Part shown: positions 8,252-21,995 of the stretch, piece by piece
How the letters are laid out: the number at the start of each line of letters is the position of its first letter
Numbering within the stretch: the first letter of the stretch is position 1
Source: a virus
Virus record (IMG/VR): IMGVR_UViG_3300029319_000580
Location: 1-21,995 of that record
Length of the DNA: 21,995 nucleotides
Reading direction: 5' to 3' (one strand)
Notes under the pieces: model-generated
Seen by the model: only the letters and a program-made list of their open reading frames with translations
Told to the model about the DNA's origin: nothing
Database searches by the model: none
Position numbers and translations under genes: made by a program

Positions 8252-9212
8252 TGCTTATCTCCTTCACAAGCTGTGCCGCGTACTGTTGAGGCGATAAACC
8301 CAGTTTCTTGGCGAGAGAAACTTGGGTGCTAGTCAACTCCACTTTGCGCGGCGATGCACCTGCTCCCCTTTTGGAAGGTGCTACCACCGGAGTTCTTCGA
8401 GAGATCGGAGTTTCACTAGCAGGAGTGCTGCTCTCACCGAAGAATTCCGAAAACTGCTTTTTTAGGGCAGAATCTATTTGCTCATAATAACCCGGATTGT
8501 TGCGGGGGTCTACCCCCTGCTTTACGAGTTTTTCATGGAGACCGACAGCGTACCCTGTCATCTCCTCATGTCCGGGTTGCTGAAACCATGTATTCCTTTT
8601 CAACCAATCGACAGCCATTGGATCAGGAGGCTCAACCTGAGCGGCTGCTTGTTGTTGATCTTGCGCTTGAGGCTGAGGCTGCTGCACTGGATTACCGAGG
8701 CTTTCGGACTCCATTGAGTACCTGACTTTTTCCGCATGAAGCCTAGACAAGTCTTCTTGAGCGGATACCACTGAATCTGTATCTCCGCTTTCGTAGGCTT
8801 CTCTGTATCTGCGCTTCGCTCCCTCAATTTCACTGTCTGTTTTCGCCCCAACCTGATCATAGAGCAAGCGTCTTAGTTCAGCATGTTGGGTTTTAAGGGA
8901 TTCGTTTTCTTCTTGAATTTGCTTGGCGTAATTTACTGCCTCACTATTCTCTCTTTGAAAACGCTCTTTTTCACGCCGCTCTTCATTGTACTCGTAGCGC
9001 AACTTTCCGATACGCTTTTGAATACGTTGACTAAGCTGACTTTCGTCTAGGTCTTCATCCTCAGATTCGTCGGAATCTTCTGCCCTCGCAGGTCTGTTAC
9101 GATCTTCCTCTGGGGTATCATCGACAACTTCAACTTCAAGTGCGTCCGGGTCAATATCCAGATCAACTTCTACTTCTTCTATTTGATCTTCTGGTAAATT
9201 TTGATTGTTCAT
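8244..9212 (-). CDS. head scaffolding protein
   Basis: A 322-residue protein with the usual scaffold layout: a very acidic N-terminus (residues 7-58, rich in Asp/Glu), a long coiled coil (about 60-165), a Gln/Pro-rich linker (176-192), a VDWLKRNTWFQQPGHEE segment, and a basic C-terminus (about 270-320) that would bind the coat protein. It directs procapsid assembly and leaves before or during packaging. It lies two genes upstream of the capsid gene, and its ATG overlaps the stop of the GroES-like gene (ATGA). No protease domain is visible in it. Confidence 0.8.
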   Translation of the reverse strand: MNNQNLPEDQIEEVEVDLDIDPDALEVEVVDDTPEEDRNRPARAEDSDESEDEDLDESQLSQRIQKRIGKLRYEYNEERREKERFQRENSEAVNYAKQIQEENESLKTQHAELRRLLYDQVGAKTDSEIEGAKRRYREAYESGDTDSVVSAQEDLSRLHAEKVRYSMESESLGNPVQQPQPQAQDQQQAAAQVEPPDPMAVDWLKRNTWFQQPGHEEMTGYAVGLHEKLVKQGVDPRNNPGYYEQIDSALKKQFSEFFGESSTPASETPISRRTPVVAPSKRGAGASPRKVELTSTQVSLAKKLGLSPQQYAAQLVKEISNG

Positions 9213-9583
9213 GGTTTTTCAATTCCTCTTGGGTCTTCAACAACTGCTTCAACAGAGTCATCATTTATGACTCTGAACTCTTGCCCATGAACATTTATCC
9301 GTGTTCCTGAGTAAGAACGCATGAGTATGAAGTCGCCCTCTTTGCACCAAGGGCCACTAGGAAACCTTTCGACATCTTTGTAAGCGTCAGGCCCCATTTT
9401 CAAAACCATTCCAACCATGCTAGCTGCCTCTTCACGCTTTCGCGTATCTTCAGGCAACAAGACACCACCTTCTGTTTTCTCTTCTTTTTCTGGTATAGCG
9501 ATTAAAATTCTGAAGCCGACAGGCTCCGGTAAGGCTTTTGCTTTTCTAGCCTTACTCAGCTTAACGACATTGTCGTCACTCAT
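9209..9583 (-). CDS. GroES-like co-chaperonin (Cpn10 / T4 gp31-type)
   Basis: A 124-residue protein from MSDDNVVKL. Core features of Cpn10: VGFRILIAIPEKEEKTEGGV (residues 22-41) with the Gly-Gly before the mobile-loop region, MVGMVLKMGPDAY (56-68), CKEGDFILMRSYSGTRINV (80-98) and FRVINDDSVEAVVED. It probably caps host GroEL to fold the phage capsid protein, as gp31 does in T4. No GroEL is visible here. The start is set by AAGGAG 6 nt before the ATG; an upstream ATG adds 20 unlikely residues. It overlaps genes at both ends. Confidence 0.8.
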   Translation of the reverse strand: MSDDNVVKLSKARKAKALPEPVGFRILIAIPEKEEKTEGGVLLPEDTRKREEAASMVGMVLKMGPDAYKDVERFPSGPWCKEGDFILMRSYSGTRINVHGQEFRVINDDSVEAVVEDPRGIEKP

Positions 9584-9785
9584 CTTCTTCTCCTTTACGC
9601 AAAGCCTCAAACAAATCGAGAAGTTCTCTCTCTGCCAAGGCAAGTCCTTCTATTACGCCCACAATCTTGTGGTATTCCTCAAAGCTACGTGCACCACCAG
9701 TAGCCAAGAAGTCGGCCTGTTCGTTCATCACAGACCTTAGATTTTTTTGAAACACCTCGTATACATTTTCAACTCTATCCACCAC
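9576..9785 (-). CDS. small helical phage protein
   Basis: A 69-residue, all-helical acidic protein: MVDRVENVYEVFQKNLRSVM, then FEEYHKIVGVIEGLALAERE and LLDLFEALRKGEEDE. It uses a GTG start (the second GTG is equally possible), and GAAGG lies about 6 nt upstream within the right half of the dyad at 9794-9815. I know similar small proteins upstream of GroES or scaffold genes in marine phages but not their role. It overlaps the GroES-like gene by 8 nt. Confidence 0.65.
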   Translation of the reverse strand: MVDRVENVYEVFQKNLRSVMNEQADFLATGGARSFEEYHKIVGVIEGLALAERELLDLFEALRKGEEDE

Positions 9786-14023: not shown

Positions 14024-14638
14024 TCATTCATAATCGAATAAAGAGAAATTGGAATTTTCCCACTCATATGCGAGTTCAATATCCTGAGGATCGTTTCTGT
14101 CATATCTGCCCCAGCGATTAACAAATGCCTCGCCACTATCGATAAGTTCTTTAAGGCTTTTGCCTGAACCCCCACGACGCCACGGTTGGAAATATTCTTT
14201 GTAAGAGAGAGATGACTTGGGAGCGTTTATGTACATCCATCCGATTATGTCACGCCAGCCCACGACCAGAAAAGCTGGTATGTTCTTTTCATCCGAAAGT
14301 TTTATCAGGGTATCGCACTTTGCTTTCGAGAGTTTGTAGGTTGGGTAATCATCAAAGTCTGGTTTTCGTTTCTTGACTTCGATAAGAGCAAGAACTTCTT
14401 TCCCCGGAACCCGAATAACGCCTGTTGTGTGAAGCATCACATGGGCAAGTTTTTTCATTACAAAATCATACGGAGCAGTTGTCCCTGTCTGCTCAAATAA
14501 AACTTCTCCTTTTCTGCGTCTTCCGTCCTCTCCCGTCTCTTCGCTGTCAACCTCACAGACTGAGAACTGATCCGAGAAAGAGTTGATTACACTTCTTTCG
14601 TGTCTGGCGTCTTCGTTTGTCTGATACAGAGGTCTCAT
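14024..14638 (-). CDS. PD-(D/E)XK-like nuclease
   Basis: A 204-residue protein. A conserved-looking Glu (E14, DARHERSVI), APYDFVMKK with D58, then VLALIEVKKR with E87-V88-K89 followed by YPTYKLSKAKCDTLIKL form the usual E...D...ExK order of PD-(D/E)XK enzymes, with a following strand FLVVGWRDIIGWMYI. It could be a Holliday-junction or branched-DNA nuclease, or a nicking enzyme that helps packaging; position beside terL fits this. No HNH motif is present. Its ATG overlaps the upstream TGA (ATGA). The fold call rests on motifs only. Confidence 0.6.
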   Translation of the reverse strand: MRPLYQTNEDARHERSVINSFSDQFSVCEVDSEETGEDGRRRKGEVLFEQTGTTAPYDFVMKKLAHVMLHTTGVIRVPGKEVLALIEVKKRKPDFDDYPTYKLSKAKCDTLIKLSDEKNIPAFLVVGWRDIIGWMYINAPKSSLSYKEYFQPWRRGGSGKSLKELIDSGEAFVNRWGRYDRNDPQDIELAYEWENSNFSLFDYE

Positions 14639-15189
14639 TGTGCGACGGAGAGAAGTTGTTTTCCTTCCAAAATTTCTTCACGAAACTCAGAACCTATTGT
14701 TGCCTCTTTGTCAAACCAATCACCCCTCAGTTCCAGAATATAAACAGGTTTACTGCTCGTGACTGCCCACCCTATCTCTTCAGCAACACCGGGACTGTCC
14801 TTCCACCCCTCAAGGGCAGCAACTGCCAGTACATCTGTGTTCTTGAAGAACTCCGCGTCACGCCTCATCCACCATTCTTTGGGATGTTGAGAAACAACTC
14901 GGTCCATACCGCGTCCATAGACGACAGGAGAGAACGCCCATACCCCTTTTTCCAGTAACCAGTTGGTAAATATGGTAGCTTGAGTAGCCCGAAGGTCAGA
15001 AATGTCCTTAGAAACGCCTCCAGAAGGCTGAAAAGGCAGTTGAGACATATAGGGAGAGGCAAGATATACGATTTTATTCCGACATTCGGCAGCAAAACGG
15101 AAAAAATCCCCGTCAATATCGTCTTTTAGGTCACGATAAAGGCCAAAATTCGGAAATGGCAGTCTCGTATTGGCAAGAATGTCCCTCAT
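14635..15189 (-). CDS. DUF1937-like / nucleoside 2-deoxyribosyltransferase-fold protein
   Basis: A 184-residue protein. Typical strings are IVYLASPYMSQ (residues 40-50), a helix with ATQATIFTNWLLEKGVWAFS (69-88), WMRRDAEFFKNTDVLAVAAL (107-126) and GWKDSPGVAEEIGWA (128-142) with the Gly-Val-Glu-Ile motif that carries the catalytic Glu in deoxyribosyltransferases, then KPVYIL. It may act on nucleosides or nucleotides, either to salvage bases or to change a host signal or modified base; the substrate is unknown. The ATG at 15189 is used here; a TTG 18 nt upstream is possible. It is the first gene after the CTAG control region. Confidence 0.65.
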   Translation of the reverse strand: MRDILANTRLPFPNFGLYRDLKDDIDGDFFRFAAECRNKIVYLASPYMSQLPFQPSGGVSKDISDLRATQATIFTNWLLEKGVWAFSPVVYGRGMDRVVSQHPKEWWMRRDAEFFKNTDVLAVAALEGWKDSPGVAEEIGWAVTSSKPVYILELRGDWFDKEATIGSEFREEILEGKQLLSVAQ

Positions 15190-15225
15190 AGCTTTTTTTA
15201 CCCCCAAAATTAACGCACAAATGGC

Positions 15226-15254
15226 GTTATACTAGACTAGACTAGCTAGGTCTA
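15226..15254 (-). promoter_or_regulatory. candidate promoter of the leftward packaging operon
   Basis: On the minus strand TAGACC (15249-15254) and TATAAC (15226-15231) are 17 nt apart, matching the -35/-10 consensus at 4/6 and 5/6. It would start a transcript about 30 nt before the DUF1937-like gene. The spacer is made of CTAG repeats, so a repeat-binding protein would cover the promoter. Confidence 0.4.
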
Positions 15255-15320
15255 TACTAATTTTCTAAATTATAGGCTAGAACTAGTACTAGACTAGAGC
15301 TAGTTCTTGACTAGAGCTAG
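15232..15320. repeat. CTAG repeat array in intergenic control region
   Basis: Eleven CTAG tetramers lie within 89 bp (starting at 15232, 15237, 15242, 15246, 15277, 15283, 15289, 15294, 15300, 15311 and 15317), with several in ACTAG steps of 5 bp. GAACTAG (15280-15286) and CTAGTTC (15300-15306) form an inverted repeat. CTAG is normally one of the rarest tetramers in bacterial and phage DNA. The array sits between oppositely directed genes and over candidate promoters. Operator array, replication origin or packaging site are possible. Confidence 0.85.
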
Positions 15321-15335
15321 TATCTATGTTAAAAC
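15307..15335 (+). promoter_or_regulatory. candidate rightward promoter for the tiny gene at 15359
   Basis: TTGACT (15307-15312) and TAAAAC (15330-15335) are 17 nt apart, a 5/6 and 4/6 match to the sigma70 consensus. It lies at the edge of the CTAG array, 24 nt before the small reading frame. That frame ends in a perfect terminator, so a complete short transcription unit is plausible. Confidence 0.4.
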
Positions 15336-15358
15336 TAACGAGTTAGAACAGTTTGAGA

Positions 15359-15481
15359 TTGGGGTATCCTCGAAAATCGTCTTCTGTAACAGATGTCAAG
15401 GATATCATGCCAGACAATTTCAAAAAGTTTTATCCATACCTCCCTGAGAAGGCGTTGCGTGAGCGCTTTCCTTTCAATTAG
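15359..15481 (+). CDS. tiny rightward protein of unknown function
   Basis: A frame of 40 codons from a TTG (GYPRKSSSVTDVKDIMPDNF, then KKFYPYLPEKALRERFPFN). An internal ATG at 15407 has AAGGA 5 nt upstream and would give 24 residues; which start is used is unclear. The sequence reads like a basic, aromatic-rich peptide. A candidate promoter lies just upstream and a perfect rho-independent terminator begins at the stop codon, which argues for a real transcript, coding or not. It is the only rightward gene between two leftward ones (small terminase and DUF1937-like gene). No family known. Confidence 0.45.
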   Translation: MGYPRKSSSVTDVKDIMPDNFKKFYPYLPEKALRERFPFN

Positions 15482-15517
15482 GGGACCCAATTACCCAAGG
15501 GGTCCCCTAATTTTTTT
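15478..15517 (+). terminator. strong rho-independent terminator
   Basis: TTAGGGGACCC (15478-15488) and GGGTCCCCTAA (15500-15510) form a perfect 11-bp stem with an 11-nt loop, followed by seven T on the plus strand. The stop codon of the tiny gene lies in the left arm. It ends rightward transcription before it can run antisense into the small terminase. Confidence 0.85.
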
Positions 15518-15784
15518 CGCAAAAATTTTTTTGAGCACGTATGGGACCCATAAAAGGGGGCACCCCCTCTTCGCTGTGAAAATTCTGTGATTATTTGTGC
15601 GGATTAGTGTGCATAGCCGTAGGTCGCGCAGCGACACATAGGGTGGCCCCCCTCCCCACCCCCGGCCCCGGTGCCGATAGTGTGGCTAGATAGCCCTACC
15701 CCCCCTAGCTTTTTCTGGGCGAGATGCCTTCGGGTTATTTTTAACTTGTCGGCTCACTGCCTGACGTAGGCACTGCGCTTTGGC
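15518..15784. other. gene-free control region downstream of small terminase
   Basis: I find no convincing gene here. It holds short palindromes (TATGGGACCCATA at 15540-15552; GGGGG/CCCCC near 15556), a very C-rich block (about 15645-15710) and dyad copy 2 at 15729-15750. It collects the 3' end of the small terminase transcript. A role as packaging start (pac/cos) or replication origin is possible because it lies beside terS, but nothing visible proves it. Confidence 0.5.
15729..15750. promoter_or_regulatory. 22-bp dyad, copy 2 (after terS)
   Basis: The core GGTTATTTTTAACT matches the GGTTAATATTAACC family but is the most diverged copy: the left half-site is TTCGGGTTA and the right is TAACTTGTC. 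It lies 34 nt beyond the stop of the small terminase. It is the only copy not directly before a start codon. Confidence 0.5.
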
Positions 15785-16297
15785 TCAGTCCTTGCCGCCT
15801 AGCAGGGCAGTCAGTCGCGCCTGTAGCTCTGTCCGCAATTCGTCCGGCGTCCGCTCTGCATTGTCGGTCTCGATCCGCTCGACAAACAATCCCACATCAT
15901 GGGTCTTGCCCAGCAGTTCGAGCGCCCTCACTCTGGCGCTGTCACTCTCCGCGTGCGTTGCCTCATGCTCCAGCCTCTCCAGAACCAACCGCCTTCGAGA
16001 GAGTGCTGACGCAGATGCAGCACGCTCCACGCTCACCTGATGGGCATGTAATCTCCGGGCGATCTCTGGGTGACCTGACAGTCTCCACGCTTCCGTGTCT
16101 ATTGCCGACCTCTTCATACCCTCTGCATTGTATGCCGCACAGTATGCCTCGTATTGGGACTGCCCCCTGATTAATCCGGCGAGGAACTTCTCCTGCTTCG
16201 GCGTGAGCTTTCGCGCTTTGCTTGCCTTCGATCCCTTACCACCCTCCACCAGTGTAAGTATTGGCGAGTCAGTGTCCGATTTATTTTCGTCGCTCAT
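15785..16297 (-). CDS. terS: terminase small subunit (TerS)
   Basis: A 170-residue protein. After a polar N-terminus, KARKLTPKQEKFLAGLIRGQ (residues 27-46), SQYEAYCAAYNAEGM (47-61) and AWRLSGHPEIARRLHA form the helix-turn-helix pattern of Terminase_2-type small subunits (compare LTPKQxxFVxEYL). The middle is a helical oligomerisation segment and the C-terminus (ELRTELQARLTALLGGKD) may bind TerL. It recognises the packaging site in DNA. Unusually it is 1.9 kb from terL with two enzymes and a control region between. Dyad copy 3 lies 15 nt upstream of its ATG. Confidence 0.75.
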   Translation of the reverse strand: MSDENKSDTDSPILTLVEGGKGSKASKARKLTPKQEKFLAGLIRGQSQYEAYCAAYNAEGMKRSAIDTEAWRLSGHPEIARRLHAHQVSVERAASASALSRRRLVLERLEHEATHAESDSARVRALELLGKTHDVGLFVERIETDNAERTPDELRTELQARLTALLGGKD

Positions 16298-16312
16298 GCG
16301 GGTTGTTCCACG

Positions 16313-16334
16313 TTCAGGTTAATATTAACCCGTC
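16313..16334. promoter_or_regulatory. 22-bp dyad, copy 3 (upstream of terS)
   Basis: The core GGTTAATATTAACC (16317-16330) is a perfect palindrome. The arms extend to TTCA on one side and CGTC on the other. It lies 15 nt before the ATG of the small terminase on the minus strand and about 65 nt upstream of the rightward promoter, so it could act on either. Its minus-strand reading (TTTGACGGGTTAAT) is nearly identical to copy 4 on the plus strand. Confidence 0.7.
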
Positions 16335-16398
16335 AAATGTACGTATTCTGCTGTTTTTCAGCAATGTGAAAAAAATCAAAGAAATGTCATTTAGTGGG

Positions 16399-16429
16399 TT
16401 GAAATGTTCAATTAGTTCCCTTATATAAT
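16399..16429 (+). promoter_or_regulatory. sigma70-like promoter of the rightward early operon
   Basis: TTGAAA (16399-16404) is followed after 17 nt by TATATA (16422-16427), overlapping an exact TATAAT (16424-16429). The preceding 70 bp are AT-rich. This is the best promoter match in the window and would be read by host RNA polymerase right after infection. It leaves a ~200-nt leader before the first gene. Confidence 0.65.
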
Positions 16430-16436
16430 GCTCATA

Positions 16437-16636
16437 CGCTGATCGCGACAGCCTAACAACGCGGGACCACAAGCAGGGTGTAACCACGAAAGTGACGGCG
16501 CATCCGTAGAGCCTAGAACCTGATCAGACTGGGCCGACACACAAATTGTGTCCGGTGCTGTTGCTGCACCGCTGACGAGCGCAATAGTGCGCCTTGGACC
16601 CAGCAGGGTCGAAACACATTCACTGAGGAGTGACAC
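16437..16636 (+). ncRNA. structured 5' leader or small RNA
   Basis: The leader has no good reading frame. From 16536 to 16610 it can fold into four hairpins in a row: GACACA/TGTGTC (16536-16552), CGGTGC/GCACCG (16553-16571), GCGC/GCGC (16579-16592) and GACCC/GGGTC (16597-16610). The ribosome binding site GAGGAG follows at once. Leader control, an RNA-stabilising 5' end or a separate small RNA are all possible; no known riboswitch class is evident. Confidence 0.4.
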
Positions 16637-17302
16637 ATGACTGCAATAGATAATTCTTTCGTATCCGCCGCCCGTGACGAGTTCAAGACTGTCACTAAGA
16701 AGGAGAACGACATCAACAAGGTTCGTGGCGAGCTAAACCCTGAGGCCAACAAGCTGAACGGCATTGCCTTCTTTGCGGTGGTTGCCAAGTCGATGGGCCT
16801 CGACAATCCTTCGTTCAAGGGCCGCAAGACAGTTGCTCGCGAGTTCCGCGAGATCGCTGCCTCTTTCGGTTGGAAAGAAGCCAAGGTCAAGTTGATCTGC
16901 GAGAACGCGGTCAAGATGACCCGCCACGGTGCCTTCGGCAATGCCATCGAAGCTGCTGTCGAGCACGGCAACACTGGCAACTTCGCACAGGAGATAGGCG
17001 GCATCTTCGACATGGAGGGCATCACCAATCAGTCCAAGCTGTTAAAGATACTGAACCCTAAGGCTGAGATCTCGGTTGTGGATGAGATTGCCCTTCTCGT
17101 TTTGAAGAAAGTCGGTGCCAAGAAGGCCGACATCAAGGTCAAAAAGGCCAGCATCTCGACGGGGACTGTTCTGGATGATGAGGCGCTTCAGTTGGCGCTT
17201 GATGTTATTGCGCGGATCGATCCCCGCGCCACCGATGTTCGTGACACGCTGGTCGATGCGCTCAACAGGGGCAGCGTCGAGATCGAAAAGGTTGCCGCGT
17301 AA
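16637..17302 (+). CDS. early protein of unknown function (221 residues)
   Basis: A mostly helical, mixed-charge soluble protein. Notable stretches are VTKKENDINKVRGELNPEAN (residues 19-38), FKGRKTVAREFREIAASFGW (60-79), NAIEAAVEHGNTGNFAQEIG (102-121) and a long C-terminal helix pair. It has no signal peptide, membrane segment or cysteine cluster. It is first in the rightward operon, behind a strong promoter and a structured leader, and shares the start context GACACATGACTGCA with the DUF3150-like gene at 20233. It may be an abundant early protein. I do not recognise a family. Confidence 0.7.
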   Translation: MTAIDNSFVSAARDEFKTVTKKENDINKVRGELNPEANKLNGIAFFAVVAKSMGLDNPSFKGRKTVAREFREIAASFGWKEAKVKLICENAVKMTRHGAFGNAIEAAVEHGNTGNFAQEIGGIFDMEGITNQSKLLKILNPKAEISVVDEIALLVLKKVGAKKADIKVKKASISTGTVLDDEALQLALDVIARIDPRATDVRDTLVDALNRGSVEIEKVAA

Positions 17303-17307
17303 TCACC

Positions 17308-17327
17308 GCCGGGGCTTCGGCCCCGGC
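17308..17327 (+). terminator. UUCG hairpin after the first early gene
   Basis: GCCGGGGC and GCCCCGGC pair perfectly (8 bp) around a TTCG tetraloop, 5 nt after the stop codon. No T-run follows (AACCAACCC). It is therefore a 3' stabiliser or attenuator that would leave the first gene with more transcript than the following ones. Confidence 0.6.
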
Positions 17328-17362
17328 AACCAACCCACCCATCAAAGGAGGACAAAAAGCAA

Positions 17363-17596
17363 ATGTTCGTTTCAGACGAAACTATCGCCGAGATTGCATC
17401 AGATATGCAATCTCGCTTCGAGTGCGACTTGCATTCTCAGTCGTCCATATCTGAGATTGCCCGTGCAGCCAGAGAGGAACTGGCTGATCGCGGATTGCCA
17501 ACCCGCAAGTCACTGTCAGTCGTCATTGCCAAAGTCGCTCTGATGACGTGGCAGTCCACTGTTTTTGAAACCAAACAAAGGAGAGCACATGGTTGA
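17363..17596 (+). CDS. small unknown early protein
   Basis: A 77-residue protein, MFVSDETIAEIASDMQSRFE then SDLHS-like polar residues, IARAAREELADRGLPTRKSL and SVVIAKVALMTWQSTVFETK. It is helical with amphipathic segments and a basic end; it could be a small DNA-binding or host-takeover protein, but no motif decides this. AAAGGAGG stands 10 nt before the ATG, a very strong site. It overlaps the next gene by 8 nt. Confidence 0.6.
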   Translation: MFVSDETIAEIASDMQSRFECDLHSQSSISEIARAAREELADRGLPTRKSLSVVIAKVALMTWQSTVFETKQRRAHG

Positions 17597-17780
17597 TAAT
17601 TCCAAATTATCGGGTCTCGAACTGCGCCGACACCTCCGTCTCAACGTGATCCGCGAAAGGTTGCGCGGGTCTGATCTCGACGTTGTCGCCGATCTCGACG
17701 ACCCGACGTTGGACAAGCTCCGACGCTTGGTGCGTAACATGCCGGATGTTTTGCCGGACGGCACCATCCTCGACCGCTAA
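17589..17780 (+). CDS. small charged early protein
   Basis: A 63-residue protein, MVDNSKLSGLELRRHLRLNV, IRERLRGSDLDVVADLDDPT, LDKLRRLVRNMPDVLPDGTILDR. Alternating Arg and Leu/Asp suggest two amphipathic helices, with the Asp-rich turn between them. The ATG at 17589 has AAAGGAG 5 nt upstream and lies inside the end of the previous gene; the frame extends 8 codons further but has no ribosome site there. No family known. Early phage proteins of this size often bind host polymerase or nucleases; that is speculation here. Confidence 0.6.
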   Translation: MVDNSKLSGLELRRHLRLNVIRERLRGSDLDVVADLDDPTLDKLRRLVRNMPDVLPDGTILDR

Positions 17781-17814
17781 TCCCACTGACGAGACTGGAT
17801 GATTACCAGCCGAA

Positions 17815-17830
17815 ACGCCCTCGGGGGCGT
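17815..17830 (+). terminator. hairpin between early genes
   Basis: ACGCCC and GGGCGT pair perfectly (6 bp) around TCGG. It lies 34 nt after one stop codon and 34 nt before the next ATG, and has no T-run (CTGGGAAAA). This is the second of three such hairpins in the rightward operon. Confidence 0.4.
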
Positions 17831-17864
17831 CTGGGAAAATCACAGAGGTGACAGGAGAACCAAA

Positions 17865-18089
17865 ATGTGTGAGCAATTAGATTTGCCTATAAACCATGAG
17901 CCTAGCCTAGACCATTGGGCAAAAAACCTTGCAGATTTATCAATAGAAAATGGTGAGTCTTCAGATTGGGACCATGCTTACGAGAGTGCATGGTGGTTCA
18001 TAGAACTTTATGTGGAGAACCAAGATTTATATCGCTCGGACCTGCACACCGTCCACAATATTGCCGAATTTTACAAAGAGGAGGTGTAG
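17865..18089 (+). CDS. small acidic early protein
   Basis: A 74-residue protein, MCEQLDLPINHEPSLDHWAK, NLADLSIENGESSDWDHAYE, SAWWFIELYVENQDLYRSDL, HTVHNIAEFYKEEV. It is strongly acidic with four Trp and several Tyr, suggesting a compact helical fold that binds a basic partner; acidic early proteins can mimic DNA, but this is a guess. The ATG at 17865 follows AGGAGA by 6 nt; an upstream ATG at 17799 covers the hairpin and is unlikely. It ends 2 nt before the next gene. Confidence 0.65.
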   Translation: MCEQLDLPINHEPSLDHWAKNLADLSIENGESSDWDHAYESAWWFIELYVENQDLYRSDLHTVHNIAEFYKEEV

Positions 18090-18091
18090 CA

Positions 18092-18352
18092 ATGATTTAT
18101 ATCGCTACGAACGTCCACGGTCGTGGGATCAAGCATGTTACTGCTTTTGAGAACCGACTTGACCTGTTGTCTTACGTTGACGAGATCACCGCGTTCACCG
18201 AGACAGTTGTCAATTCCCGCGACAATATCGACACCCTTTGCGACAAACTTTCCGACAGGGGTATGGGTTGCGGTTCCAGAAGTCACGCCAGAGTGAGCCG
18301 ACGCGAGGCACACGATTTAGTCCGCAACGGCGCGTTGCCATACGGTTTTTAA
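18092..18352 (+). CDS. small unknown early protein
   Basis: An 86-residue protein, MIYIATNVHGRGIKHVTAFE, NRLDLLSYVDEITAFTETVV, NSRDNIDTLCDKLSDRGMGC, then a basic SRSHARVSRREAHDLVRNGA and LPYGF. The start looks like a beta strand and the middle like two helices. GAGGAGG stands 7 nt before the ATG, and the frame in front is the antisense-looking extension of the previous gene. No family recognised. Confidence 0.6.
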   Translation: MIYIATNVHGRGIKHVTAFENRLDLLSYVDEITAFTETVVNSRDNIDTLCDKLSDRGMGCGSRSHARVSRREAHDLVRNGALPYGF

Positions 18353-18368
18353 TTGAAAGGATTGAGTT

Positions 18369-18572
18369 ATGGAGATCATGTATTTTGCAGGGGTTGTTGC
18401 AATTGGTTGCGTAATTCTGGCCGCATGGCTGGCAATCAGCACCATAGAGGCAACATGCCCATCAGAGGTGAGAGAGCTACGCCGTCGCAATCGTAAGCTC
18501 GAAGCGATACTTCGCGAGGAAAACCGCCACGCTGCCCGCACCGAGCGCTTGAACCGTAAGAAGTTATCGTAA
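18369..18572 (+). CDS. small single-pass membrane protein with basic coiled tail
   Basis: A 67-residue protein. Residues 4-25 (MYFAGVVAIGCVILAAWLAI) are a hydrophobic membrane helix without a clear cleavage site. Residues 32-67 are a very basic helix (EVRELRRRNRKLEAILREEN) that would lie in the cytoplasm. The shape recalls spanin- or holin-like or superinfection-exclusion proteins, but there is no lysis cassette nearby, so the role is unknown. AAAGGA precedes the ATG. The last codons are part of a 27-bp direct repeat. Confidence 0.6.
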   Translation: MEIMYFAGVVAIGCVILAAWLAISTIEATCPSEVRELRRRNRKLEAILREENRHAARTERLNRKKLS

Positions 18573-18611
18573 CAAGTTTGCGGTACCGTAAGAAGTTATC
18601 GTAACAAGTTT
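18553..18611 (+). repeat. 27-bp direct repeat at gene end
   Basis: A 27-bp unit (18553-18579) recurs exactly at 18585-18611, 32 bp later. The first copy holds the last codons and stop of the membrane-protein gene; the second is non-coding. Each unit contains the palindrome GTTATCGTAAC. It is either a recent tandem duplication or a pair of protein-binding sites. Confidence 0.85.
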
Positions 18612-18632
18612 TTCGTAATGTTACGAAAACTT
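18606..18632. repeat. inverted repeat before the 75-residue gene
   Basis: AAGTTTTTCGTAA (18606-18618) and TTACGAAAACTT (18621-18632) are inverted with one extra T on the left and a 2-nt centre. It overlaps the second 27-bp repeat. No T-run follows, so an operator is more likely than a terminator. Confidence 0.6.
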
Positions 18633-18671
18633 ATTAGGAAGATCGCCCGTGATAGTTGTTGACTAACAATT

Positions 18672-18693
18672 GACGGGTTAATTTTAACCTGAG
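18672..18693. promoter_or_regulatory. 22-bp dyad, copy 4 (upstream of the 75-residue gene)
   Basis: The core GGTTAATTTTAACC (18676-18689) is flanked by GACG on the left and TGAG on the right, and the whole stands 8 nt before an ATG. TTGAC precedes the core, as on the minus strand of copy 3. The ribosome site GAGGTGAC begins within the right flank, so binding here could block translation as well as transcription. Confidence 0.65.
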
Positions 18694-18701
18694 AGGTGAC
18701 T

Positions 18702-18929
18702 ATGGAAAATTATTCTGGTTATGAGATCGACCACAAGCCTGTTAGCTGGTCACGCAATCGCGCCCATCACTACAGGATGAAAAAGGAAAACTATCTGAGG
18801 CTTGCCGCTTCGATGGAGAAAAGGGCCAAGTGGGCGCGGAGACGCGGTAGTGACAAAGAGTACACCAAATACCTTCGTCTGTTGGCGACGGCGTCCGAGT
18901 ATCGCAGACTTGAAGGTCTCTTCGAGTGA
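18702..18929 (+). CDS. small basic early protein
   Basis: A 75-residue protein, MENYSGYEIDHKPVSWSRNR, AHHYRMKKENYLRLAASMEK, RAKWARRRGSDKEYTKYLRL, LATASEYRRLEGLFE. It is rich in Arg, Lys and Tyr and probably all helical; a nucleic-acid-binding role is likely but unproven. The ATG is set by GAGGTGAC; a GTG two codons upstream is possible. Its stop overlaps a GTG in the frame of the ATPase that follows. Confidence 0.6.
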   Translation: MENYSGYEIDHKPVSWSRNRAHHYRMKKENYLRLAASMEKRAKWARRRGSDKEYTKYLRLLATASEYRRLEGLFE

Positions 18930-19078
18930 AGCGACCACATTGGGAGAGGATCGTTCGTCAGGCTAAAACAAGAGCCGCTCGAAATCGAGATACTCCTGAA
19001 GATTGGCCCCTTCTTATCTACTCCTACGATGAGTACAAACGACTTTTTTCTAACCCTAACGTGCAGCGAGGTGACACC
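18926..19078 (+). other. in-frame N-terminal extension of the MoxR ATPase gene
   Basis: From a GTG that overlaps the previous stop (GTGA) the ATPase frame is open for 51 extra codons (KRPHWERIVRQAKTRAARNR ... LLIYSYDEYKRLF). The stretch has a protein-like mix of Trp, Tyr and Arg but less GC at third positions than the ATPase. It may be a longer isoform with a basic N-terminal domain, or simply untranslated spacer. Confidence 0.35.
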
Positions 19079-20164
19079 ATGCACATCAAACCTTCCCAGT
19101 TGACCGAGGCCCTGTGCCTCACCCTTCCCGACAGTCCCGTGATGATCTGGGGTGCGCCCGGTGTGGGCAAGTCTCAAATCATCCACGACAGTGTTGAGGA
19201 TATCTTCGATGCTGTTGCTTCGGCGCGTGGCGTCGAGGTCCCTGCGTCTCCCATCTTGTGGGAGCGGCGCATCAACGACTACGACCTACTCGACTTCGCA
19301 GGTCTGCCGCACATCGTGGATGGTGTGCAGGTCCGTGCGCTGCCCGACATTTGGCCCGGTGTTGGCTCCAGCAATCCTGTGTACGGGGTCCTGTTTCTGG
19401 ACGAGTTCCCGCAGGGTGCGCGAGAGAAGCAGACCGCAGTCCAGCGGTTGTTGGACGAGGGACGACTGGGCGACTACGTGTTGCCGGGGCATCCCAAGTC
19501 TGACCCTGACTGCAAGCGCGGTCTTGTCGTGGTCGTGTTGGCTGGCAATCGCCAGTCAGATCGCGCCAACAGCCACGGCATGGGTACCCAGACCGGGTCA
19601 CGCATGGTTCACTTCACGCTTGCGCCTGATGTGGACGACTGGCTGGGCTGGGCCGCTGAGGCCGATGTGGACCCACTGGTGACGGCGTTCGTCAAACAGA
19701 TGCCTGAGTATCTGTACAAGCTGGACCCTACGGTCAAGTCTGACACGCCTACAGGTCCGACGCCCCGCACCTTGGAGAAGCTCTCTAAGGCTGTAAAGCG
19801 CTGCCCTCCGGCTCATGTCGAGACCGCTGTGTACACTGGCATTGTCGGTGAGGAATGCGCTCGTGCCTTCCTCGCTCTCTGCCATGCAGCCCGTGGCGTC
19901 AATGTCGAGGAGGCTTTGACCAACCCCGACACCTGCGAGGTGCCGAGTGAGGCGGGTTTGCAGTTTGCGGCAGCATCACTGCTGATCCGCCGTTCAAGCA
20001 CAAAGAACTTTGACAACATCGTCAAGTTCGTTGAGCGCGACGGCTGGTCTTCACCTGAGATCGGCGTGTTTGTGGTCGAGGCAATCAAGCGGCGCATACC
20101 GCTGGTTGCTGAGACCGAGACGTATCGGGATTTCTGCCTGCGTTGGGCAGACATCCGCTCCTGA
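19079..20164 (+). CDS. MoxR-family AAA+ ATPase
   Basis: A 361-residue protein with all AAA+ motifs: Walker A GAPGVGKS (residues 25-32), Walker B VLFLDEF (104-110), sensor 1 at N157 in VVLAGNRQSDRA, a likely arginine finger in GTQTGSRMVHF (R175) and sensor 2 in PTGPTPRTLEKL (R230). The insert NDYDLLDFAGLPHIVDG is typical of MoxR/CobS-like enzymes. Such ATPases work as chaperones with VWA proteins to insert metals or remodel complexes. Here the VWA-like partner and a DUF3150-like protein follow at once. GAGGTGACACC before the ATG sets this start. GC-rich third positions differ from the late genes. Confidence 0.85.
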   Translation: MHIKPSQLTEALCLTLPDSPVMIWGAPGVGKSQIIHDSVEDIFDAVASARGVEVPASPILWERRINDYDLLDFAGLPHIVDGVQVRALPDIWPGVGSSNPVYGVLFLDEFPQGAREKQTAVQRLLDEGRLGDYVLPGHPKSDPDCKRGLVVVVLAGNRQSDRANSHGMGTQTGSRMVHFTLAPDVDDWLGWAAEADVDPLVTAFVKQMPEYLYKLDPTVKSDTPTGPTPRTLEKLSKAVKRCPPAHVETAVYTGIVGEECARAFLALCHAARGVNVEEALTNPDTCEVPSEAGLQFAAASLLIRRSSTKNFDNIVKFVERDGWSSPEIGVFVVEAIKRRIPLVAETETYRDFCLRWADIRS

Positions 20165-20166
20165 GC

Positions 20167-20184
20167 GGGGGGCTTCGGCCCTCC
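20167..20184 (+). terminator. UUCG hairpin after the ATPase gene
   Basis: GGGGGGC (20167-20173) pairs with GCCCTCC (20178-20184), one wobble, around a TTCG loop, 2 nt after the stop codon. No T-run follows. It copies the arrangement after the first early gene, so it seems a deliberate 3' end signal of this phage. Confidence 0.55.
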
Positions 20185-20193
20185 CCTCACTTC

Positions 20194-20215
20194 TTCAAGT
20201 TAATATTAACCTGTC
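20194..20215. promoter_or_regulatory. 22-bp dyad, copy 5 (upstream of DUF3150-like gene)
   Basis: The core AGTTAATATTAACC (20198-20211) is a near-perfect palindrome, with TTCA on the left and TGTC on the right. It stands 17 nt before the ATG at 20233 and 9 nt after the UUCG hairpin. Together they suggest that the last two genes of the cassette can be controlled apart from the ATPase. Confidence 0.65.
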
Positions 20216-20232
20216 AACATTTGAGGTGACAC

Positions 20233-21162
20233 ATGACTGCATTATCTGAAAAAGCTGTTCTCGTTCGCGTGATTGGTTCCACATGGAGCGGTCGTCGCAC
20301 CGACAAGGTGGTTGCCGAGGGTGCGGCGAAGCATTTCGACACCACATCCAATTGGGTGAGCGGGTCCAAGCGCTTGGTTGATCCCGCTGTTATTGCGGAG
20401 CCAAAGAAAATCTTGGGCGCTGCCCGTAACTATCTGCGCGGTGACAGCGTGGGTCCGTTGGATGGCGAGTTCATCACGGGCGGTCTTCCATCATGGGATG
20501 ACAAGGGCTGGTATATCTTGCCCAACGCACTGAATGAAAAGGTGCTTCGTAATCTTGGCGAGTTCCGCTCTCAGTTCGAGGCTGCGCTCGAAGACCTCAG
20601 GGATGCCTTACCCGCCGCCATCAAACGTGCGCGGGATGAGAACCCAAAACTGTGGTCAGCCGATGACTACGCTGGGGGGCGTGACGACGAGGCCAACGCT
20701 GCCATCATTGTGGCAGAGCGTTACGACTTTGACCGTGAGCTTGATGTCATCCCAGACAGCGGTGACATCCGCGTGTCGGCATCCAAGGAGTTTGTGGATG
20801 CGCTCAAGGCGGAGGTCGAGGGCCGTGCAAACAAGCGCCTCGAAGAGGTGGCTACGCACACCCGCGACACTGTCCTGTCCACGCTGCGCCATTTCGCTGA
20901 CAGTTTGTCAGAGTATGACCCAGAAAACAAACGGGCGACGGTGTTCCGCAATAGCACCGTGACCCGATTGCGTGAGCTTGTTCCAGTTGTCCGCGCTCTC
21001 AATATCGAGGGCGATGCGCGATTGGACAAAGCCGCCGATGACATTCTTGCGGTGCTGGGCAATCGGACTGCGGAGACGCTGCGCGAAGACCATGAGGATC
21101 GCGCTATCGTTGCATCCAAGGCCAGAGATGTGGCGAAAAATCTTACTGATGTTTTCAGCTAA
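20233..21162 (+). CDS. DUF3150-like protein of the MoxR cassette
   Basis: A 309-residue, largely helical protein. The N-terminus has VRVIGSTWSGRRTDKVVAEG (residues 11-30); the middle, GEFITGGLPSWDDKGWYILP then NALNEKVLRNLGEFRSQFEA, matches DUF3150-type phage and prophage proteins as I know them; the C-terminal half is coiled (SKEFVDALKAEVEGRANKRL; RHFADSLSEYDPENKRATVF). No catalytic motif is visible, so it is probably an adaptor between the ATPase and the HExxH protein. GAGGTGACAC before the ATG repeats the start context of the ATPase. It ends 10 nt before the next gene. Confidence 0.7.
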   Translation: MTALSEKAVLVRVIGSTWSGRRTDKVVAEGAAKHFDTTSNWVSGSKRLVDPAVIAEPKKILGAARNYLRGDSVGPLDGEFITGGLPSWDDKGWYILPNALNEKVLRNLGEFRSQFEAALEDLRDALPAAIKRARDENPKLWSADDYAGGRDDEANAAIIVAERYDFDRELDVIPDSGDIRVSASKEFVDALKAEVEGRANKRLEEVATHTRDTVLSTLRHFADSLSEYDPENKRATVFRNSTVTRLRELVPVVRALNIEGDARLDKAADDILAVLGNRTAETLREDHEDRAIVASKARDVAKNLTDVFS

Positions 21163-21172
21163 GGAGGTAACT

Positions 21173-21995
21173 ATGTACGCATCAATACTTGATCCTGAGT
21201 TGGGGCGCTTGATACGCGCCCGTTCTCGACTGGGCAGCAAGGCTCCCGGTTACGCTGCTCAGGTCTTCAACCTTCCTCTGACCGAGACCACCCGCACCGA
21301 CACGATGGCGACAGACGGCAAGTCGATGTTCTGGAACCGTGAGTTTGTGCGGAGTACCACCGACGCAGAACTGGAGGCAGTGGTCTTACATGAGGGGCTG
21401 CATGTCACCTTCATGCATCATCTGTTGCGTGGTGATATCAATCCCGATGTTTGGAACAAGGCGTGTGACTATGCCATCAATCTTGTGGTCTTGGACGCTG
21501 GTCTCGCACTACCGGACGAGGCGCTGCTAGATCACAAGTATCGTGGCATGTCTGCCAAACAGATCGCCAAGACCCTGTCTTCACCAGACAGTCCCAAAAG
21601 CTCGTCAGGTGATGGTGAGGCGGCTGAGGGTGGTAACGCACCCAGCAGTGGCGATGGCGATCAGGACGCCCCCTCAGGCGCTCCTGAGGCCCCCTCTCAT
21701 GCGGGGGAGATATGGGATCAGACCGACGATGATGGTCAGCGCTTGACTGGCGATGATCTTGAACAGGCTATCGAGGATACCCGTCGAGATATCATCGTAG
21801 CTGCCGAGGTCGAGAAGGCCACAGGGTCTGGCACCGTCAGCATCAGCGACGGCGTTCTGCAAGCAGCCAAGGATGCCAGCATTGATTGGCGCGAGGCGCT
21901 TGCAGACTTCCTGTCCAACAGCTTTGGCGAGGAGGCCACGCTGGCCCGTCCCAATCGTCGCTTCATTGGTGGGGGTCAGTACCTGCCTTCGACTG
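21173..21995 (+). CDS. HExxH (DUF2201/VWA-like) protein, 3' end outside window
   Basis: The frame is open from ATG at 21173 to the window end (274 codons). The N-terminus has MATDGKSMFWNREFV (residues 45-59), then VVLHEGLHVTFMHH with the zinc-protease motif HEGLH (73-77), then WNKACDYAINLVVLDAG (94-110), the usual order in DUF2201 putative metallopeptidases (COG3864). A Ser/Gly/Asp-rich linker (about 140-175) follows, then a helical region. The VWA/MIDAS part normally at the C-terminus would lie beyond the window. AAGGAGG stands 5 nt before the ATG. It is the natural partner of the MoxR ATPase two genes upstream. Confidence 0.75.
   Translation, partial: MYASILDPELGRLIRARSRLGSKAPGYAAQVFNLPLTETTRTDTMATDGKSMFWNREFVRSTTDAELEAVVLHEGLHVTFMHHLLRGDINPDVWNKACDYAINLVVLDAGLALPDEALLDHKYRGMSAKQIAKTLSSPDSPKSSSGDGEAAEGGNAPSSGDGDQDAPSGAPEAPSHAGEIWDQTDDDGQRLTGDDLEQAIEDTRRDIIVAAEVEKATGSGTVSISDGVLQAAKDASIDWREALADFLSNSFGEEATLARPNRRFIGGGQYLPST

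Follow-up and report, generated by a model that had tools for sequence, protein, structure and literature searches.

The partnership between MoxR-type AAA+ ATPases and VWA-domain proteins is already known, as are the DUF2201 family and phage-encoded pairs of a MoxR ATPase with a metallopeptidase-vWA protein. The phage pairs include gp24 and gp25 of phage N4, which belong to the 14 genes that form the core of N4-like phages, one entered there as unknown and the other as vWFA, and which are middle genes (PMC4193335; PMC2784036). The main text of the CRISPRi-ART paper mentions neither N4 gene. Here we describe a module in which a MoxR ATPase and a DUF2201 protein are joined by a DUF3150-like protein. 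It lies at the right end of virus record IMGVR_UViG_3300029319_000580, probably a fragment, whose 21,995 bases constitute the window analyzed. DUF3150 found no mention in the literature searched. As far as our searches reach, what is new is a unit of three genes that includes DUF3150 and occurs in phages, plasmids, and bacterial genomes, the finding that phages with the same virion genes can lack it, and its replacement by CobST-like pairs at a single locus.

A co-inherited three-gene unit

MoxR, DUF3150, and DUF2201 form a real, co-inherited unit (one operon). The preliminary description, made from the sequence alone, had noticed three adjacent rightward genes of these types, the last encoding the motif HEGLH, and matches to PHROG and Pfam families confirm this assignment (Table 1). 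The triplet also proved to recur widely in phages, plasmids, and bacterial contigs. Among the loci first collected, 73 carry all three genes in one order and on one strand (some contigs being counted repeatedly). When 14 loci were fetched by DUF3150 alone, MoxR and/or the VWA protein adjoined it in every one, as far as the contigs extend; genes at the fetched loci were called mechanically as open reading frames (ORFs). Bacterial contigs fetched by the DUF2201 profile have the complete triad at 63 of 80 loci. Degenerate patterns drawn from the phage sequences matched no bacterial DUF3150, which was found instead through the DUF2201 alignment. Removal of near copies leaves 85 non-redundant triads (40 of phage and 45 of bacterial origin), whose three proteins show closely correlated pairwise distances (Mantel r 0.92-0.94). 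The order is permuted to DUF3150-MoxR-VWA in three sister phages (Table 1) and at two bacterial loci (L289, L294), and there too the genes remain together. A quick tree of DUF2201 needs seven changes between phage and bacterium, four of them forced by well-supported branches, and some long branches blur the details. The module was therefore probably transferred several times between replicon types.

The window MoxR protein has the expected motifs: Walker A GAPGVGKS; Walker B VLFLDE; the sensor AGN; and TPR. All are near-invariant across alignments of homologues. Against Pfam AAA_5 (PF07728) the protein scores 17.3 bits, under the cut-off of 22; a profile of the MoxR alignment finds Midasin chains best in the PDB, with NorQ and CbbQ lower down. 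The DUF3150-like protein is linked by profile to homologues that bear this name in phage MinM2 and on Cupriavidus plasmids. Its AlphaFold2 model reached a pLDDT (predicted local distance difference test) score of 87. A PDB sequence search with it gave no match, and Foldseek and VIA returned helical bundles only, none convincing. NCBIfam gave no match for the window proteins.

The third protein combines two domains. Its visible part in the window consists of a HExxH peptidase-like domain (HEGLH at residues 73-77), a low-complexity linker, and the beginning of the VWA part. The window end truncates this copy before the VWA domain proper, and statements about that domain derive from relatives. 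A VWA half had been suspected from the first, and three relatives (L003, L011, L013) indeed complete the protein, at about 420 amino acids, with a PF09967 VWA domain and the metal ion-dependent adhesion site (MIDAS) motif DxSxS. The L003 copy, 80% identical and complete at 422 amino acids, scores 106 bits against PF13203 and 58 bits against PF09967, and has the MIDAS residues DTSGS, GGGT, and TDG. Its AlphaFold2 model (mean pLDDT 83) matches solved VWA domains in VIA with Z 12.7 and a root-mean-square deviation of 2.6 over 149 residues. Across 55 aligned phage homologues, whose mean column identity is 27%, HExxHx4H and WNxAxDxxxN are present in 55 and DxSxS in 54. The two invariant motifs resemble a conserved metal site on two adjoining helices, which may be catalytic. 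In PHROG (phrog_1314) the gene is labeled 'HNH endonuclease', and 'HNH' or 'homing endonuclease' also appears on phage records (NC_071039, NC_019526). This seems to be misannotation, because Pfam assigns a putative metallopeptidase domain with an E-value of 7e-31.

The start contexts of the three genes (GAGGTGAC, GAGGTGAC, and AAGGAGG) are as first reported, but the high expression that had been read from them is not supported: AGGTGA or AGGAGG sites precede many other window genes, including a small ORF at 18702, and those of the module are thus ordinary ribosome-binding sites. A promoter scan of 15200-21995 was uninformative (one site, against 4.1 expected), Rfam and tRNA scans found nothing, and no phage record was matched in a Megablast search with the entire window.

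Spread, absence, and exchange

By tblastn, 707 phage records match MoxR and 285 match the DUF2201 part; such relatives are widespread among N4-like phages and among jumbo phages. Matches to N4-like phages of the Schitoviridae reach E 1e-35 for MoxR and 2e-15 for DUF2201 (nACB1), and the window and N4-like proteins have invariant residues in common. DUF3150 homologues occur on 40 plasmid records, and the VWA search retrieved 39 of these as well. On the two plasmids read, pBMC401 of Burkholderia ambifaria (typed conjugative) and pIII of Paraburkholderia dioscoreae (typed mobilizable), the genes for MoxR, the third protein, and the VWA protein are consecutive, between PRTRC genes and a type IV secretion operon. 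Genes for RNase H and Sipho_Gp157 often follow directly after acidobacterial triads, which suggests that these chromosomal copies are located in mobile elements.

The large terminase subunit, TerL, places the window phage with pelagiphages HTVC027P and HTVC023P, plus 023Pt_psg01, DSL-LC04, and Planktothrix phage Pag-Yong1. Pag-Yong1 carries the triad. The other four, deposited as complete genomes, formed the basis for a comparison of presence and absence. They share capsid (63-66% identity to the window), portal (39-42%), and TerL (53-58%), along with the tail genes and a GroES-like protein. None of the four has a DUF2201 protein, such a MoxR protein, an AAA_5 match above cut-off, or a VWA_2 match. 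Judged by these gene contents, a head, portal, and tail set of the window type can form without the module.

This comparison bears on virion assembly, in which MoxR and VWA proteins would chaperone tail or portal proteins while the metallopeptidase processed structural precursors. Assembly with peptidolytic processing has been proposed for the group 2.2 jumbo phages (PMC7824862), and the MoxR-VWA pair p618/p892 of ATV acts in tail development (PMC4124505). Some virion proteins of the N4-like roseophage RPP1 are encoded near its gp24/25 homologues (PMC4193335), and the MoxR protein of phage PA5oct carries a virion mass-spectrometry note (electrospray ionization tandem mass spectrometry, ESI-MS/MS). 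Against assembly stand the four phages that do without the module; the module's strand, opposite to that of the structural genes; and the copies on plasmids, which have no virions. Presence and absence, the plasmid copies, and the slot exchange set out below all count against assembly as a function common to every carrier; we judge it unlikely, though it may apply in other lineages. The preliminary description had listed host takeover, capsid or tail maturation, and protection from other phages as candidate functions. Maturation of the virion is now disfavored in the window lineage, and a role at the host interface is favored.

In sister phages, here the relatives found by TerL, the module occupies a slot that lies left of terS and is read from the other strand than the structural genes; where a primase-helicase gene is visible, the slot is to its right. 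The slot is held by the triad in either gene order, by a MoxR-DUF2201 pair, by a CobS-like MoxR paired with a CobT-like VWA protein, or, once, by the anti-restriction protein ArdC (Table 1). The CobT-like proteins of L188, L191, L192, L194, and L211, encoded on the minus strand, have HELLH or HELCH N-terminal to the VWA domain, and the HExxH-VWA plan is common to them and DUF2201. The simplest reading is that the slot conserves an activity, a MoxR motor on a HExxH-VWA protein, and not one family.

Such exchange also lends some weight to cofactor or metal insertion, in which the machine would activate a phage or host metalloenzyme. Precedents are NorQD, for nitric oxide reductase (PMC13036017), and the proposal that viral CobST boosts cobalamin for ribonucleotide reductase (PMC8651126); some bacterial DUF2201 proteins, moreover, retain the metal-binding His and not the Glu. 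Yet neither ribonucleotide reductase nor CobN was found in 16 related contigs of 53-65 kb, in which controls were detected, and no other metalloenzyme constantly adjoins the triad. We regard cofactor insertion as quite improbable. The results further argue for a fresh look at phage CobS/CobT genes that carry a vitamin B12 annotation.

Several neighboring genes were noted in passing. The GroES-like co-chaperonin gene adjoins the portal gene, is retained, at 38-52% identity, in each of the five related phages compared, and is a genuine candidate for an assembly chaperone. Genes for a PDDEXK_14 nuclease and a DUF1937/deoxyribosyltransferase-like protein lie by the terminase genes; both are present in sister contig G001 and absent from the five related phages compared. 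G001 also encodes integration and recombination functions (Table 1), and the phage group may therefore be temperate. Finally, a conserved protein is encoded downstream of the module in several relatives. Its 399-residue copy had no match in a PDB sequence search and a PHROG match at its C-terminus only. The protein is annotated as AcrVA2 in Pag-Yong1, a tentative identity that we have set aside as evidence.

Table 1. Genes of the module, occupants of the slot beside terS, and other features. Loci outside the window are given by locus or contig handle.
Feature	Locus	Position	Strand	Evidence or remark
MoxR-type AAA+ ATPase, 361 amino acids	window	19079..20164	+	phrog_1297 'ATPase', E 2e-56
DUF3150-like, mostly helical third component, 309 amino acids	window	20233..21162	+	PF11348, 22.1 bits (cut-off 24.9)
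DUF2201 protein, 274 amino acids visible, no stop	window	21173..21995	+	PF13203 (DUF2201_N), 108 bits, E 7e-31
Terminase small subunit (terS), slot border in sister phages	window	15785..16297	-	phrog_1595, E 2e-13; slot synteny
MoxR-DUF3150-DUF2201 at slot	L150, L154
Permuted triad at slot	L144, L148, L153
MoxR-DUF2201 pair at slot	L178, L183
CobS-like MoxR + CobT-like VWA at slot	L185, L188, L191, L192, L194, L197, L211, L215
ArdC (ArdcN + MPTase-PolyVal) at slot	L155	5109-6086	-	one locus
Bacterial DUF2201 without catalytic Glu	L262, L279, L281, L285, L287, L293, L296
GroES-like co-chaperonin	window	9209-9643	-	phrog_3188
PDDEXK_14 nuclease and DUF1937/deoxyribosyltransferase-like genes	window	14024-15207	-
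Tyrosine integrase, Sak annealing protein, PDDEXK nuclease, RusA, Toprim-DnaB primase-helicase	G001 (L140)	40001-54067
Conserved protein downstream of module	L003	5857-7056		399 amino acids
Conserved protein downstream of module	L017	9787-10908
Conserved protein downstream of module	L024	10051-11091
RNase H + Sipho_Gp157 genes by acidobacterial triad	L232	6270-7376

A possible machine at the host interface

The reading that we prefer, at a little short of an even chance, is an ATP-driven machine for remodeling or proteolysis whose target is a host factor, engaged early during establishment or in counter-defense, and in which DUF3150 serves as an optional adaptor. A MoxR hexamer would dock on the VWA domain, by analogy with NorQ-NorD and Midasin, and would spend ATP pulling or twisting it. 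In the DUF2201 protein, taken as a co-chaperone, a flexible linker connects the VWA and peptidase-like domains; the movement would bring HExxH onto the target complex, which would then be remodeled or clipped. DUF3150, which is missing in other lineages, would recruit the target or gate access to it. The most likely target would be a host factor that mobile DNA of any kind encounters soon after entry.

Phages and conjugative plasmids alike arrive in a new cell, and they have the module in common, which points to an early host factor. Both phages and conjugative elements commonly have zincin peptidases among their early conflict proteins (PMC5512222). A role at the host interface is further suggested by the swapping at the slot, the absence from phages with the same virion, and the plasmid copies beside transfer genes, as well as by the strand of the module, the recombination genes in G001, and the middle-gene status of the N4 homologues.

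Several observations weigh against this reading. The pair is core in N4-like phages, which fits a constitutive task equally well (PMC4193335), and the PA5oct MoxR protein carries the virion ESI-MS/MS note mentioned above. ArdC is found at the slot at a single locus, which by itself counts for little. The peptidase step is also in question: seven bacterial DUF2201 proteins keep HxxxH and have lost the catalytic Glu (no DUF3150 was detected at six of these seven loci), and ArdC functions without its protease site (PMC7213743). Proteolytic cutting may thus be dispensable.

A broader version of the host-factor machine, possible but on balance doubtful, holds that in phages the MoxR-VWA pairs of DUF2201 type and of CobS/CobT type can stand in for each other in one early task. 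Each would be an ATP-driven HExxH-VWA machine, common to phages and conjugative plasmids and with DUF3150 as target adaptor, and would disarm or remodel a host factor directed against incoming DNA. If this is true, then phage CobST genes named for cobalamin are misnamed.

The triad could instead serve defense or superinfection exclusion, as a ternary MoxR-vWA conflict system that mobile elements bear against competing phages. Its three-part logic (MoxR, vWA, and a third protein) is that of the described conflict systems (PMC7159879), and the DUF2201 tree forces at least four moves between phage and bacterium. Nevertheless, no PADLOC model matched the window proteins better than E 0.02, variable effector domains were not seen, and core status in N4-like phages (PMC4193335) speaks against such a role, which we consider very improbable.

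Relation to known systems

NorQ-NorD, RavA-ViaA, and Midasin likewise place a MoxR-type AAA+ ring on a VWA/MIDAS partner, but act on known cellular substrates. To our knowledge, their partners contain no HExxH domain.

The ternary MoxR-vWA conflict systems (Kaur et al. 2020, PMC7159879) also join MoxR and vWA to a third protein, and their VMAP core is alpha-helical. In the window module, by contrast, the third protein is DUF3150, no variable effectors are seen, and the carriers are phages and plasmids. Window proteins have no Pfam match (E<=1) of the VMAP, iSTAND, FtsH, beta-propeller, or bpMoxR kind, a search that distant kinship of DUF3150 with VMAP could escape. ArdC is a zincin-type metallopeptidase domain on mobile elements and holds the slot in one sister phage, but it has neither MoxR nor VWA, contains a single-stranded DNA-binding domain, and does not need its protease site to function (PMC7213743).

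Phage CobS/CobT-like pairs (phrog_249 with CobT_C) are likewise a MoxR-family ATPase with a HExxH-VWA protein, in the same slot of sister phages. They belong to other families: the window proteins and those of L003 have no phrog_249 or CobT_C match, and with CobN missing from the 16 related contigs, the module does not group with the CobS/CobT cobaltochelatases.

The group 2.2 jumbo-phage pair (Iyer et al. 2021, PMC7824862) has the same domain plan, and tblastn detects homology in phages of the 121Q, RaK2, and PA5oct type. That pair was described with an assembly role, whereas the window has a DUF3150 triad that is also found on plasmids and that phages sharing its virion genes can lack.

N4 gp24 and gp25 (phrog_1297 and phrog_1314) are homologous MoxR and DUF2201 HExxH-VWA proteins, non-late and encoded near replication genes. 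They differ in that, in the N4-like records read, DUF3150 neither separates nor adjoins them, and in being core where the module is patchy in the window lineage. The triad, the plasmid copies, and the natural presence, absence, and swapping at one locus now make the role of this core pair, an old question, testable.

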